The notes beneath the pieces are model-generated. The model was not told the DNA's origin. It was given only the letters and a program-made list of their open reading frames with translations, and did no database searches. Shown one piece after another: positions 35,633-42,195 of a DNA stretch of 64,000 bases. The position numbers and the translations under genes were made by a program. Numbering within the stretch: position 1 is the first letter of the stretch; each line of letters starts with the position of its first letter. Source of the DNA: Trichaptum fuscoviolaceum (Eukaryota; Basidiomycota; Agaricomycetes; Hymenochaetales; Trichaptaceae). The stretch spans positions 3,332,941-3,396,940 of the forward strand of contig CAJSYZ010000011.1 in assembly GCA_910574455.1 (NCBI GenBank), given 5' to 3'.

Positions 35633-35641
35633 CGTCTTTGA
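35633..35641. repeat. 9-bp target site duplication, left copy
   Basis: CGTCTTTGA immediately left of the left TIR; identical to 42187-42195 immediately right of the right TIR. Confidence 0.9.
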
Positions 35642-35710
35642 TAGACTCGCAAGCCAGTCGTTTCGGAGAAACGACTGGTCCGACTCAATCAGTAGGTGGC
35701 AGAGTAACGT
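35642..35710 (+). repeat. Left terminal inverted repeat (69 bp)
   Basis: Exact reverse complement of 42118-42186. It contains an internal hairpin at 35654-35678: an 11-base arm CCAGTCGTTTC, a 3-base loop GGA, and the matching arm GAAACGACTGG. The same hairpin is at 42150-42174 in the right repeat. Such a structured end may be a transposase binding or cleavage signal. Confidence 0.93.
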
Positions 35711-35734
35711 CATTGTGACCCATGGGTCACAATG
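35711..35734. repeat. 24-bp perfect palindrome abutting the left TIR
   Basis: Each half is CATTGTGACCCA and its complement, with no spacer, starting at the base after the left TIR. I did not find a matching copy inside the right TIR. It could be a protein-binding site for expression of the helicase gene or for transposition; that is inference. Confidence 0.8.
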
Positions 35735-35902
35735 TGCCTGATTATTCAGCTTAGTGGTGGCAAATTTTCACAGGGTTCTTAAGTTGCCGGTGGCTTCCCG
35801 AGTCCCGGTCACTCTACTTTTTTATTTTGAAATTCCACTTGTATTAGAATCAGATAGCGAATACATGCAGATTTTGTGCTACATTTTTACTATACATCTA
35901 CT

Positions 35903-38122
35903 ATGAGGTTCTACGAGTCCAGAGAGCTGAACAGAGACTCATTGAAGTCCTTAGGCCGTCAAACGTTTGGTTTCGAGCCCTTTGACTGGCAAATAGACAC
36001 AGCCGAAGCTGTCTTGGGGGGCCGGGATGTTGTGCTTGACGTAGGCACAGGGAGTGGAAAGACTCTAGCATTCAGCTTGGCATTAGTTCTGGATAAGAAA
36101 GACATTGCTATTATAATATCGCCGTTATCAAGTCTCATGATTGAACAAATGGAAGACGAACGTATTTCAACAATAGCCGTACACGAGACATTTAAACGGA
36201 CGTCGAAGGAGGAAGTGTACCGGGTGAGGTCGTACCTGAATATGAGTTAGTAAGAACTAATGGAGATAATTAGGACATATGCATGGGCAAATTCCGGAGA
36301 GTACTAGTCTCACCGGAGATTGCAATCTCGCAAGAATTTGGTGTATCTGTTCTATCAAAAAAAACCCTTCAAGACCAGCTTCGATGCTTCGTAGTTGACG
36401 AAGCACATTGTGTATGCGAATGGGGAGGTTCCTTTCGCCCTGACTACACCAAGATTGGTGCCCTCCGAGGTCGGATAAGAAAGTCTGTACCATTTGTAGT
36501 CGCTTCAGCGACTCTGCCATCTCATGTATTGGACGTTGTAAAAAAGGAGCTCAACATCGACGCCAATCCAATCGTGGTATCCCTTACGAATGAAAGGAGG
36601 AATGTTATATTAGTAACAAGACCTATGAAGTTCGACGAATTGTCAATGGGAGACTTACGTTTCACAATCCCGCGAGAGGCAAAGGTGCCTCAAGATGTAC
36701 CAATCACATTGATCTACGCAAATACGCGTGCCTCCTGCGAGACCATTTACGACCGCCTAAAGCACTTCTCACCTACCTGGCTACACGGAGCCATTGCCTA
36801 TTACCATGCTAAGATTGGGCAGAAAAAAAAAAGGCGGCTTGAAGAACGCCTTCGCAAAGGCAAAGTCCGGATAATGATCTGTACAGATGCTGTTGGTATG
36901 GTGAGTAGTCTTTTATTAAATAGGAAGGAGAAATACTTATCTACAATGTCAAGGGATGCGATCTACGTAACATCGAACGGGTGGTTTTGTGGGATTTGCC
37001 CCTTACATTTTGTTCTTTGGTTCAGCGGGCAGGGCGCGCAGCACGAGACTTGTCAACTCTCGGTGTGGCCTTTTTAATAGTTCGGAAGGGGACCAGATGC
37101 CAAGGCGTGAAGGCATTGGAGGTCGACCGCCTTCAGTCTCAGATATTTGGACCGGAGGAGGTACTGAGTTCCAGTGAAGAGCTTGATGAATACGATAGGA
37201 TGGAGATTGAGAATGCCGTGGAGACAAGTGGTCATGAGATCAGACGTCTTGATGACGGTGGGAGACGAGTGGAAAGGGCAGGGGAGGGTGAGAGAGAAGA
37301 AGCTGTCGAAGGATCAAACGGCCCGAAGGCACGTAAAAAAAAAACTCGCACGCGCATTGAGGAGAAAGAGGCAACGTACCTCACATTATATGCCAATACT
37401 ACACATTGCCTGCGTGAGGTCTGGGACAAGTACTTTGGTAACAAAAACAAAAGTAAGTCATATCATTCCCAATTTCTCTATGCAGATTAGGACTTACAAT
37501 TTATACAGCCCCTTTAGTCTACAAGAAGAACACCCTCTATAAAGCACGCCCGGGAACCCCCTGCTGCTCCAATTGCAACCCCGAAAGCTTTCCCATGGAG
37601 GACATTGTGCTCGAAAAAAGGCCTGGAATAAAGCGGGGTCGGCGTGCCGTTGCATCACAGGATTTTATCAAGTACGCAACAAAGCGTCTTGTTGCATGGC
37701 GAGCAGCCCTCCTTGATCGACTATACCCGAACTCCGTTACCACGACCGCCAAGACGCTCATGCAGAAAGATATCATTGACAAGATAGCCTTGCAAGGCAA
37801 GCGATTCTCATCGGCGACTGATCTGCTCTCGCGAGTTCGGTGGGCCTTTGGCACTGAATCTCTTCAAGACCCTTCGCCAATCCCAAATGACTATTGTCGG
37901 GAGCTCTTCATTGAGCTCCAGGATATCTACAACGAATACGACAGAATGCATCCGTCAGGTGAAGACACTGAAGATGAATTAGAAGAAGGAAAGGACGAAG
38001 GTTCTGGTGGTGCAAGTAATGGGGGGGGAAGCAGAGTCACACATACTAATGCCGGTACACAAGTCCGTGTTCGAAATTATGTGCTTAAATTCAATTTGAA
38101 CCCCAATGTGTCTTCCGATTAA
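35903..38122 (+). CDS. RecQ-like DNA helicase carried by the transposon
   Basis: Superfamily 2 ATP-dependent helicase. Exons 35903..36223, 36274..36900, 36954..37452 and 37509..38122 give 686 residues, uninterrupted. Motifs in order: a Gln motif-like FDWQ, Walker A GTGSGKT, motif Ia SPLSSLM, RecQ-style Walker B DEAHCVCEWGG, motif III SATLP, motif IV IYANTRASC, then CTDAVGMGCDLRNI and motif VI QRAGRAARD. The RecQ-Ct zinc domain is absent. Instead there is a long charged linker, a GTPCCSNCNP motif, and an acidic Gly-rich tail. This architecture, rather than a host RecQ with HRDC domain, is the type I know as abundant in Agaricomycete genomes. The start at 35903 (MRFYESREL) is preferred; an in-frame Met at 35876 is possible. 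Likely role in the element is strand unwinding during transposition or replication, by inference. Confidence 0.88.
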
Positions 38123-38213
38123 TTTGCTTCACAATAAAGGCGACCTATTGTAATATTGAGAGTGGAAATAGATAGACATAAGTAGATAACTGAAATGAAC
38201 TATCCGATATTCG

Positions 38214-38232
38214 CGACTGGCTTGCGAGTCTA
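38214..38232. repeat. Internal copy of the transposon's terminal 19 bp
   Basis: CGACTGGCTTGCGAGTCTA is identical to the outermost 19 bases of the right end (42168-42186), in the same orientation, so it is inverted relative to the left end. It sits between the stop codons of the two convergent genes (38122 and 38240). Confidence 0.85.
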
Positions 38233-38239
38233 CTGTCCG

Positions 38240-41200
38240 TCATCCATCCAAGTTGAGGCCCTCAGCCATGGCACGGATGGCTTTGATCGTCGACTCCGTA
38301 AATAGATCATCGTCTTGCAGGTCCTCTAGAGTAAGATCTCCTTCGTCCTCGTCTTCGTCTTCCATGTCCTCTAGCGCAAGTTCTCCATCAGAAGCTTCCG
38401 TGGCCTTGGGAATTAACCCGGTGTCCTCTGACTCTGACTCTGACTCTGACTCTGACTCTGACTCTGATTCCGACTCCATTGCATCCATCGATCGAGATGG
38501 TGTCGGCCTTGCTTTATAGAAGGCCTGACGTGTGTCTGGAACGAAGTTCTTGAAGGCCCTGGGTGTATCAGAGTAAGCTGCGCCATTTTCGAAGAAGTTG
38601 CGCGCCTCGGCAGTGTCGTCGTTGAAGGCCCTCCCAGGTGTGTACGTTTGAATGGAATACTGTTGTAAGTGTCCCAGTAACTTATCCATGTCCTTTCGTG
38701 TGTCCGGGGACGTGTGTGATGTCCCATTTTTTCGAGCCTCGTATTGGTCGCCAACGCATGTGAGAACACTGCGTAGTGACCATAGACACAGGCTAATAAC
38801 TCGAAGCCATTCGTCACTCTTATTCACCCCTCGAGCCTGGTAAATTATCTGTAAGTTAATAACTTGATTAGTGCAACATTCTTCGAGTGCGACCGCCAAA
38901 AAAAACCTACCTTAATGAAGAAGTTCTCGTGCTCTTGAAGGAGGTCAAGCTCCTTGAAGTGACCTGGTTTACCGGAGAGATTGACCAGCCAGTTCATGAG
39001 ATGCGCCTCTCTTTTTTTTTTGGCGGTCGGAATAAAAAAGAATGTCAAGTTAGCATAGCCAATGCGACGAACTACACATCAGGAACTCACCTGCGAACTG
39101 GGTCCATCTGCTTCAATGTCTGCAGTGTTTCAAACAATGCATCCGCATACTTTGGCATAGAGCCGGTTCCCCGAAACTCCACCATCCAATGCACAAGCAC
39201 ATTGAGAACCCGTCCGATATCTCCTTCTCGTATGGCGGATTTGAACTCTAATAAAATAAGGGCGTCGATGTTGAATAATGTAATGTTCTCGAATACCCTA
39301 TCTCATGCTTCTTCAGGCTCTTCCCGCATGTCCGATACTCGGCGTCGAGACGCAATGCGATTCAGTACTCGTTTCGCAGTGTCAGTAATGTCTTGCATCT
39401 CACTGACACTATCCACCCATTCTGACAGCGAATCCTTGCCACATTCGAGGCGCCAGCCGTCCAAGACATTTGCAGGCAACGCAAATGTCAGAATGAGCTC
39501 AGACAAGGGCTGGAAAGGAGCAAGCTTCGACGCTTTCCAGCCACAGACCATGGGCCGTCGACAGAGCAATGAGTTCACCTTCCAAAGTGACCACATTGCT
39601 TTTCCATTGGGCTTGCCCCAATACTCATTCCCAACCATTCGGGTCCCGGCCATTTTGACATGGAAAAGGCCGAGCAATTTATCGACCCACTTGCTAAAGT
39701 TATCGAAAAAATCGTCGTCGCATCTGCGTGTCGCGCATGCCTTAAAAGACAATAAATCAGTTAAATGTACTCCAAATAATGTTGGTGATATACCTTGTCA
39801 GTCAGAGACCATGTCAGGTGGTCCCCGGAGCAAATTATTAGTCCATGCCTTCGGAGATCCTCCGAACTCATTCCAAGAATTGAAATAATTGCTTCGATAA
39901 TTTTTATGGTGCCGTCAAGCGAAGACTTGTCAATAGGAAGGTAGGGAAGGGAATGGTGCACAGATTTGTGCACTGGTATCGGATGTACAACCGGGGGCTT
40001 CGCTCCATTTTTAAAACGAGTCTTCAAGCGTGTGTAGTATTGAAATAATATATCAATAATATGATAGATGAGAGATTCTTCAAGCTCGTGTATCTGTTGC
40101 GTGGAAGGGAGTAGATCGTGGAATTTGAAAGCCAGAGGAGGTTGACGATATATGCGAGGTGCTAGCATTGCCGACTTCAGTTCTCCTTGTCTAATATTGA
40201 AGAGTTCGATCATTGAAACCGATGTCCCAGATAGAAATCGGAATTTATTGTCCTCCCGTTGTTCGGCAACGTCGTGTCTGAGACACAGATTGTCCCAGCT
40301 AATAAGAAACGGTGTGTCTTTAGCGCGGGAGCGAATGCATTGAAGACGCTCGTCCGCGAGCTTCTTGAGTCTTTCGATAGCAGTATTGTAACTGACCGAC
40401 AAGCCTGCATGATGCAAGACGTCGAATACGGCTCTTGAGCATCCACTTGCCAGTAGATAAAAGCTTATGACAATTTGAAACACATTCGCGCGCTCGCTGC
40501 GGGCCTGCGCAAGCATGCAAATGACAGTCGTATAAACCTACACATTTAATGAGCCGGAGACCATACTAAGATAAAAAAAGGGGGCACGCACCAAATCCCG
40601 ATTCCTTCTCATTGACTCCCCATCCTGTTTAGTCCTACGACCAGTGGAGCGAACGCACGTCCATAGCAAAGGACACAATTCTTGCGTGCATCTCATAAGT
40701 CCGGACATTGAGAAGTTGACGAGCAGATAGCTGAGATCTTCAGATGGCATCATATTAACTACAAGCCTTTGTCCTTCCCTCTCTGCCTCACGCTCCACCC
40801 ATCCCACTACCCATCCCCGAACCATGTCCGGACACCTATTCTCCAGTCCATCCAACAACTCGTGTCCATGTTTATTCATGGTGCGCGAAACATGCGCTTT
40901 TATTTGCTGTTCGGAGCACGTCAAGAGCGTATTCAGGAAGCCGTGAAGAGTCCAATCGAGGCGTCCGAGGAAGTCCGTAACAGACTTGATGACTTCGACG
41001 GCAGTGAGCTTGTGGGTGCTGGTCGAAGGCCGTGGAACTTGTGCATTGTGCGTACGGACGCTCGGACGCGGAGAAGCTGATATCTCATGTGGATTGCAAT
41101 GTATCGCACTCGCTTTCGAAGGAGTCTCGGATAGTGACAATGCGCTCGAGCTGTTCGGAGTTGCAGCTAACGTGCTCAGATCGACTGTGCTCCCGAGCTT

Positions 41201-41305
41201 TGGTTTTTTTCTATATGTCCTTTTTTCACCTGGAGTAAAATCAATGAATGTTGTGTTTTGATTACGCTCCCCTAATGGGCGCTTCAACGGTGTAGAATAC
41301 TCCAT
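38240..41305 (-). pseudogene. DUF6589-family protein, candidate transposase, one in-frame stop
   Basis: Exons 41305..40592, 40537..39794, 39740..39091, 39010..38911 and 38848..38240 join in phase to 938 codons. The product resembles the DUF6589 proteins of basidiomycetes, with landmarks SVSYNTAIERLKKLADE, LISWDNLCLRHD, ICSGDHLTWSLTDK, WLVNLSGKPGHFKELDLLQE, and a late stretch TRQAFYKARPTPS. Codon 632 (39305-39303) is TGA, between EEPEEA and DRVFENITLF; both sides fit the family, so the copy looks disabled by one base change, possibly CGA to TGA. A rescue intron (donor GTGAGA near 39390, weak acceptor) would drop 30-odd conserved-looking residues and is less likely. Acidic residues in WDN, GDH and QEHEN could form a DDE site. 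The C-terminus has a Glu-Ser dipeptide repeat and acidic tail. Confidence 0.75.
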
Positions 41306-41384
41306 AATAAATTAACTACATAAATACGACCTCGTCAAACGTTGTAGTAGGAAAAGAGGCGCGTAGACGCGCGCGACGCGCCTA

Positions 41385-42003
41385 CAGTGGCGAAAGGCCA
41401 AAACCCGCCTCTGGGTGCAGGCCGGAATTTTGCGTGAAAACTCGCCATACTGAAATTTTTGTAATCAAAGTAAGAAAGATACGTCGATTTATGCAATAAA
41501 AAAATTTCCGGTCTATGTTTCAAATTTTTTTGAAGGATATGATTTTTTTTTGTGAGATTTCAGCCTTTATTGGCCTTGGATTGGCTGGAAATATAATCGG
41601 GAGTGATTTCCGAGCCTTTCTGGAAAACTACTAATTAAGGTTAAACAGCTGAATGACCTTTGCCGGGTTACCGGAAAAAGATAAATTCCGATTAAAATTT
41701 CTTATACTGTCAATTTTTTTGCTTGAGGCCCATCGGATTGCGAAAAGACGTTGATTCCGCATGTTCCGAGCCCGTGGGAAATAGATAAAAGAGCTGCAGC
41801 CCCAAAATAAGCAAGATGTTTCAAATTCAGACATGGAATTTTTTTCGGAATCATTTTCGTGCAAAACTAATCTATAAGAATTGAAGATATACTGCATTAG
41901 AAGCTATTTACACAGTTTCAGGGTTATTGGTTAAGGTTTGTGTCCGTAGAAAGAAAAGTTTTGAGGGGGTTTCCGAGAGGCTGGTTTTAGCCTTTCGCCA
42001 CTG
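41385..42003. mobile_element. Nested 619-bp Tc1/mariner-like MITE
   Basis: The left end reads CAGTGGCGAAAGGCCAAAAC and the right end is its inverse with two differences over 27 bases (41385-41411 against 41977-42003). TA dinucleotides flank both sides (41383-41384 and 42004-42005), the target duplication expected of Tc1/mariner elements. The interior is AT-rich with no long frame, so it is non-autonomous. It inserted into the larger transposon, between the DUF6589 start and the right TIR, and is therefore younger than that element's assembly. Confidence 0.75.
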
Positions 42004-42117
42004 TATGACCGGCGCAAATCGCGTGTGACTTTCGCACTCGTTTTGTCTTACTTTCTCACCCTCACTAGGGTCCTACCTCAAAGGGAGAATGCTTTTTAGG
42101 AAATATGGGGAGCCTTC

Positions 42118-42186
42118 ACGTTACTCTGCCACCTACTGATTGAGTCGGACCAGTCGTTTCTCCGAAACGACTGGCTTGCGAGTCTA
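42118..42186 (-). repeat. Right terminal inverted repeat (69 bp)
   Basis: Exact reverse complement of the left repeat with no mismatch. The outermost 19 bases also occur at 38214-38232 in the same orientation as here. Confidence 0.93.
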
Positions 42187-42195
42187 CGTCTTTGA
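42187..42195. repeat. 9-bp target site duplication, right copy
   Basis: CGTCTTTGA immediately right of the right TIR; identical to 35633-35641. Confidence 0.9.

Follow-up and report, generated by a model that had tools for sequence, protein, structure and literature searches.

A very likely DNA transposon lineage pairing a DUF6589 protein with a convergent RecQ-like helicase in Trichaptum fuscoviolaceum

Within a 64,000-nucleotide window of the Trichaptum fuscoviolaceum genome (assembly GCA_910574455.1, contig CAJSYZ010000011.1, positions 3,332,941 to 3,396,940 of the forward strand), two convergent genes, one for a RecQ-like helicase and one for a protein of the Pfam family DUF6589, lie between terminal inverted repeats (TIRs). 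This element very likely belongs to an Agaricomycete lineage of cut-and-paste DNA transposons in which TIRs and 9-bp target site duplications go together with a DDE transposase of the DUF6589 family and a RecQ-like helicase encoded convergently to it. The sequence basis for this assignment comprises dispersed copies with TIRs and differing 9-bp duplications, the constant pairing of the two genes and their co-diversification, ratios of nonsynonymous to synonymous substitution (dN/dS) well below 1, and a common layout of the element ends.

The element proper occupies window positions 35642–42186 (6545 bp) between two exact copies of the duplication CGTCTTTGA, at 35633–35641 on the left and 42187–42195 on the right. 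Its TIRs lie at 35642–35710 (plus strand) and 42118–42186 (minus strand); the outermost 69 nt are identical at both ends, and the 82-nt arms are 93% complementary. The terminal 19-mer occurs three times in the window, against 0.02 occurrences expected (at most three mismatches). Perfect 69-bp TIRs, a perfect 9-bp flanking duplication, and two convergent spliced genes inside the repeats had all been proposed in the original prediction and are confirmed here, with the RecQ-like gene on the plus strand and the DUF6589 gene on the minus strand. Its description of the element as intact, with genes filling the interior, was too strong: the DUF6589 frame holds an in-frame TGA (39303–39305, minus strand) at a position that is open in a sibling copy (L022), and a nested 619-bp miniature inverted-repeat transposable element (MITE) occupies part of the stretch that separates the right TIR from the DUF6589 start. 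The window copy is probably unable to make a full DUF6589 protein itself.

Copies were surveyed in this one genome (59 Mb). The left end of the window element was found at at least 40 places (40 of the 66 candidates scored), and the right end gave 46 matches, left ends being among them through the common TIR. Twenty-one elements of the window subfamily were inspected, including that in the window; for six, an end was not located in the fetched DNA (contig 10 at 404k, contig 9 at 3125k, contig 1 at 4395k, and the gene-bearing copies on contigs 1, 7, and 8). Exact 9-bp duplications flank 12 of the 15 with both ends located (eight recovered by script, the window element itself, and three identified by eye: GCTCGGTTG, ATCTAGGCA, and GGAAAATCC), and the remaining three show an exact 10-bp repeat (by eye), a match at 8 of 9 positions, and no duplication. 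Judged from where their ends lie, 16 of the 21 elements measure approximately 0.5–1.2 kb, and these short copies contain neither gene.

Genome-wide, 42 matches to the DUF6589 profile (PF20231) merge, on our own reading, into 22 DUF6589 loci, 15 of which (elements a to o) fall outside the window subfamily. TIRs with an exact 9-bp duplication are present in nine of these 15 (b, c, d, e, f, h, j, k, and o, the last by eye); in h, one extra nucleotide separates the left duplication copy from the tip. TIR length in b, c, d, e, and h ranges from 224 to 405 bp, the longest being that of b, at 99–100% identity; greater divergence is seen between the TIRs of f, j, k, and o (74–92%). Across all subfamilies, both ends were located for 25 elements, and 21 of these have exact 9-bp duplications of differing sequence, with one duplication of 10 bp, one matching at 8 of 9 positions, and two elements without any. 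TIRs and fixed-length duplications at independent sites, the features by which a cut-and-paste DNA transposon is recognized, are present, and further copies with both, as the original prediction had anticipated, exist. The alternative that chance or segmental duplication produced the repeats, with no transposon involved, is already refuted by the different exact 9-bp repeats at different sites and is extremely improbable; all that favors it is the failure to find an empty site for the window insertion, its joined flanks matching the window alone and the flank being single copy.

The pairing of the two genes recurs across these loci. A convergent helicase akin to that of the window adjoins DUF6589 at 16 of 22 loci, and a DEAD domain was confirmed alongside at two more (l and o), giving 18 of 22 with a convergent RecQ helicase domain. 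C-terminal RecQ remnants beside DUF6589 at three further loci raise this to 21; those on contigs 12 and 3 match exon 4 of the window gene, and that of m is an 87% match to the frame downstream of the helicase exons of g. No helicase was found at locus n (C3:170k). The two genes are adjacent well beyond the window locus; adjacency at that locus alone would, by the terms of the original prediction, have refuted it.

Distances among the RecQ-like proteins (exon 2) and among the DUF6589 proteins (Pfam stretch) at 16 loci are strongly correlated (Mantel r 0.971, reached by 0 of 10,000 permutations), and both proteins recover the same groups: the window element with four siblings, a to e, f to h, and i to k. 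Estimates of dN/dS are 0.10–0.24 for RecQ and 0.07–0.18 for DUF6589; 6 of the 20 comparisons were saturated and yielded no ratio, the RecQ range coming from 7 of 10, and the ratios are rough because several dS values exceed 1. Both proteins look, from these sequence comparisons, to be under purifying selection. The window element departs from its subfamily in one respect: its RecQ-like protein is distant from those of its siblings (63–66%), its DUF6589 protein is not (81–87%), and this unusual distance in one gene of the two suggests that the window element is a recombinant between elements.

The original prediction treated RecQ as cargo and DUF6589 as the engine of one transposon lineage. The single lineage is upheld by the adjacency of the two genes, and the term cargo is not: because RecQ has co-diversified with DUF6589, it is better termed a core partner. 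It is nevertheless possible, if somewhat unlikely, that RecQ is a passenger without any role in transposition and that DUF6589 alone moves the element. Many short copies lacking both genes have moved with their ends only, so that neither gene is needed in cis, and accessory genes with various uses, TET/JBP among them, occur in other fungal transposons (PubMed Central, PMC, article PMC12730594). Against a passenger role, the RecQ-like gene accompanies DUF6589 in all four subfamilies compared, diversifies along with it, and has low dN/dS in every comparison that yielded a ratio.

The DUF6589 gene, assigned to PF20231 by hidden Markov model search, runs on the minus strand from an ATG at 41305 to a stop at 38240 (38240–41305), with exons at 41305–40592, 40537–39794, and from 39740 onward to the stop; introns after 39740 are unplaced in the model. 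Its predicted fold comprises an RNase H core with a large helical insertion ahead of the last acidic residue, and a fold search matched it to ISCth4. Candidate D, D, and E/D residues of an RNase H-fold transposase are found among its conserved acids. There is strong support for placing DUF6589, as a putative DDE transposase with the RNase H fold, among the enzymes with a helical insertion (Hermes, P, RAG1, IS256-like), and DUF6589, a Pfam family of so far unknown function, is very probably a transposase.

Sequence-level searches did not connect DUF6589 with a known transposase family. A hmmscan of 52 DUF6589 proteins at E ≤ 1 recovered no transposase among the 25 Pfam families listed, where a single member at most could be hidden; the families absent there include the Mutator-like element (MULE) transposase domain PF10551, the hAT dimerisation domain PF05699, and the Kyakuja–Dileera–Zisupton (KDZ) transposase PF18758. 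A hmmsearch of PDB sequences with DUF6589 gave no link and a single match at E 0.97. Profile comparison by hhalign returned a probability of 0.1% both for DUF6589 against MULE (five sequences from the same genome) and for DUF6589 against KDZ (six such sequences); the two alignments are shallow, leaving room for distant kinship. As controls, DUF6589 against itself scored 100%, and MULE against KDZ also returned nothing. KDZ, Dada, and Kolobok do not appear in the structure match list, an absence that carries no weight.

It is quite unlikely that the element belongs to a known superfamily as a MULE with a captured RecQ. MULE/MuDR elements also have long TIRs and 8–11-bp duplications (PMC6446971), and the fold match to ISCth4 is a further likeness. 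The MULE domain is absent among the Pfam families listed and the shallow profile alignment recovered no sequence kinship, the RecQ partner and palindromic subterminal arms set the elements described here apart, and RecQ is no recent capture, since it tracks DUF6589 across subfamilies. With hAT elements (Hermes), the resemblance lies in the predicted DUF6589 fold, whose RNase H core carries a sizeable helical insertion ahead of the final acidic residue. The hAT elements differ in an 8-bp duplication, as compared with 9 bp in 21 of 25 elements here; further differences are the RecQ gene and the TIRs, which are perfect over 69 bp in the window element and as long as 405 bp in b. The hAT5, hAT6, and hAT7 variants exist, and none with 9 bp is named in the excerpted text of PMC12730594.

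Another alternative, that some other enzyme such as KDZ moves the ends while DUF6589 and RecQ are both cargo, is highly improbable. In its favor, KDZ is very abundant in this genome, and the short copies show movement in trans. Against it, DUF6589 has a predicted DDE transposase fold and accompanies every terminus type seen, and Zisupton and Dileera make duplications of 8 bp (PMC12730594), not 9 bp. KDZ elements are described as expanded in basidiomycetes, some with accessory genes. The KDZ transposase domain has 115 Pfam matches in this genome, compared with 7 for MULE and 5 for hAT; the hAT matches have short open frames.

The closest published pairing of a fungal DDE transposase with RecQ that we found in the open-licence PMC literature, compared by its description, is KolobokH. 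This Kolobok lineage is reported to combine a DDE transposase with a RecQ helicase in fungi only, and Kolobok-1_CCri carries RecQ on the complementary strand (PMC9587614); KolobokH with RecQ genes has also been reported at Cladobotryum telomeres (PMC10989895). Yet Kolobok elements, as described, make TTAA duplications and have 5′-RR..YY-3′ ends, as compared with varied 9-bp duplications and ends beginning 5′-TAG or 5′-CA here, and RecQ in KolobokH lies downstream of the transposase domain, not in a separate convergent gene. On description, these differences set KolobokH apart, and the identity of the present element with KolobokH is very improbable. Among other comparisons, RecQ-like helicases of Agaricus bisporus var. 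burnettii and other fungi are likewise multicopy and restricted to the helicase core, but are described as subtelomeric (PMC7473861), whereas those considered here are dispersed, TIR-flanked, and accompanied by DUF6589.

A survey of fungal helicases as transposon domains names AcademH, KolobokH, and Helitron, and the word DUF is absent from its excerpted text (PMC10799480); no mention of DUF6589 was found in the open-licence PMC literature. The original prediction knew of no named superfamily with this gene content, and none was found in that literature, Repbase and Dfam lying outside the search and possibly holding the lineage under another name. Within that scope, the lineage fits no named transposon group found, and it is probably a DDE transposon lineage of superfamily rank.

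Several observations, in addition to the missing empty site and the high dS values, weigh against this assignment. Mobility and the role of DUF6589 are read from sequence and a predicted model. Foldseek gives DUF6589 low TM-scores, those of the top row being 0.23 and 0.36, its catalytic triad was assigned by conservation and secondary structure where E410 and E582 are also invariant, and the E motif was not seen by pattern in f, g, h, and m. Adjacency was scored in a single genome, and in the reverse view 6 of the 22 listed RecQ places have no DUF6589 partner, two of the six having a window-subfamily left end nearby. In Mycena polygramma and Plicaturopsis crispa, a RecQ and a DUF6589 protein come from contigs of equal length, too slight a hint to count as adjacency. 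Duplications are missing from the contig 10 element (C10), which has both genes and both ends, from element i, which has both ends, and from element a, which has a 191-bp TIR. No convincing TIR was found for g, l, m, or n; in n, inverted copies match over 249 nt at 60%. Searches of other collections gave 79 pattern matches in viral contigs and 99 in prokaryote contigs, none of which encodes a relative. By eye, l and n appear to be interrupted by open frames resembling Ty3-type retroelements.

The helicase gene was modeled by hand on the plus strand as four exons (35903–36223, 36274–36900, 36954–37452, and 37509–38122) encoding 686 aa. Pfam DEAD and Helicase_C matches exceed their cut-offs and RecQ motifs are present in this core; by eye, the DEAH box and following loop in exon 2 are of RecQ type. 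The RecQ zinc-binding domain gave a sub-threshold match only (20 bits against 25), and neither RQC nor HRDC has an entry among the Pfam matches listed. Among 120 homologues listed of 2077, the best 34 are fungal where named, with at most 47% identity over most of the protein; below these, identity drops to 24–34%, and the sequences are mainly bacterial RecQ where named. Homologue names include DNA 3′-5′ helicase and ATP-dependent DNA helicase RecQ, and by homology the protein is a putative 3′-5′ DNA helicase. A C-terminal cysteine cluster (CCSNC and similar), located in exon 4 of the window gene, is seen in the transposon RecQ proteins, and no Pfam model covers it in the frames scanned.

The ends of the elements share a common design. 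Each of the 34 termini located in the window subfamily has an 11–12-nt tip followed by a palindrome opening with CCA, in which at least 8 of 9 arm positions are paired and the loop is 7–36 nt; these termini come from related copies and are not independent, and five short pieces lack a terminus. The window palindrome, CCAGTCGTTTC-gga-GAAACGACTGG, begins at nt 13 from the tip (35654–35678, plus strand), with its counterpart at the right end (42150–42174, minus strand). Changes on both arms exist (CCAGTCGTT/AACGACTGG as compared with CCAGCCGTT/AACGGCTGG). In the other subfamilies, palindromes with differing arm sequence open approximately 9–13 nt from the tip in c, e, f, h, i, j, k, and o, although the script misplaced the starting points for j and k by 1–15 nt; in i, in o, and at one end of k the arms are short, were reached by 2–12 of 60 shuffles, and are weak alone. 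The best hairpin of element b starts at nt 25, and 14 and 20 of 60 shuffles did as well. Where ends were found, tips follow the protein groups: TAGACTCG; CATCCTCC in b to e; CAGTCTCC in f and h; and TAG(T/C)CT in i, j, k, and o. By eye, element b seemingly has two hairpin modules in tandem. In element a (L009, L059; contig 5, 4452.0–4452.2k and 4458.0–4458.2k), the outer TIR hairpin module appears, again by eye, inverted on one side with other sequence on the opposite side, as if TIRs were assembled from exchangeable hairpin modules.

The variable loop favors either folded DNA or two separable binding sites; alternatively, arm likeness could be kept by gene conversion between arms. Under the transposon reading, DUF6589 would, a role with strong support, bind the tips, excise the element, and join it to the target at cuts staggered by 9 bp. 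We infer that the RecQ-like protein would act in transposition itself, most likely on branched or palindromic end DNA or in repair of the donor gap. The latter role is modeled on the P element, which makes 8-bp duplications and whose gaps are repaired with the help of the host helicase Blm; the helicase is host-encoded there and element-encoded here. Failed (interrupted) gap repair would account for the 0.5–1.2-kb copies with both ends and neither gene. A more ambitious proposal is that this is a superfamily-level DDE lineage with a helicase inside the transposition machine, whose hairpin-capable ends (the 11–12-nt tip, CCA...TGG arms, variable loops, and paired changes) would be recognized or processed while folded and melted or resolved by the element's own RecQ. 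We regard this full proposal as speculative and rather unlikely; if true, it would represent a helicase-assisted DDE mechanism.

These results would give DUF6589, common in mushroom genomes, a function, very probably that of a transposase, and would provide a home for core-only RecQ-like helicases that multiply beside it. At least in this genome, tallies of RecQ or DUF6589 genes as host gene expansions would be tallies of transposons, and it is plausible that the lineage accounts for the expansions of both families in Agaricomycetes generally. AcademH is another DDE element that pairs with a helicase; Helitrons, which are unrelated, also encode one. The elements described here offer a test system for a DDE-encoded helicase, a pairing for which KolobokH and AcademH are the other examples known.

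The nested MITE (41385–42003) is flanked by a TA duplication, has ends CAGTGGCGAAAGGC, and has 22 near-full-length matches in the genome at 91% identity or more, the window copy included. Its length about accounts for the size difference between the window element and the contig 10 copy, which is approximately 5.9 kb by end positions. An internal copy of the 19-nt TIR tip lies where the two convergent genes face each other with their 3′ ends (38214–38232, plus strand) and, with 0–3 mismatches, at 6 of 7 window-subfamily loci (the window, L018, L022, L027, L029, and L030); with each subfamily's own tip as the query, it was found at 0 of 14 other loci, where the DNA covered the intergenic part only partly. 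This tip, which no second palindrome arm accompanies, might be a trace of RecQ having once been a separate nested element. A window-type tip with two mismatches also lies inside the DUF6589 match of element k (L017 1655–1673, contig 4) and is perhaps the remnant of an insertion.

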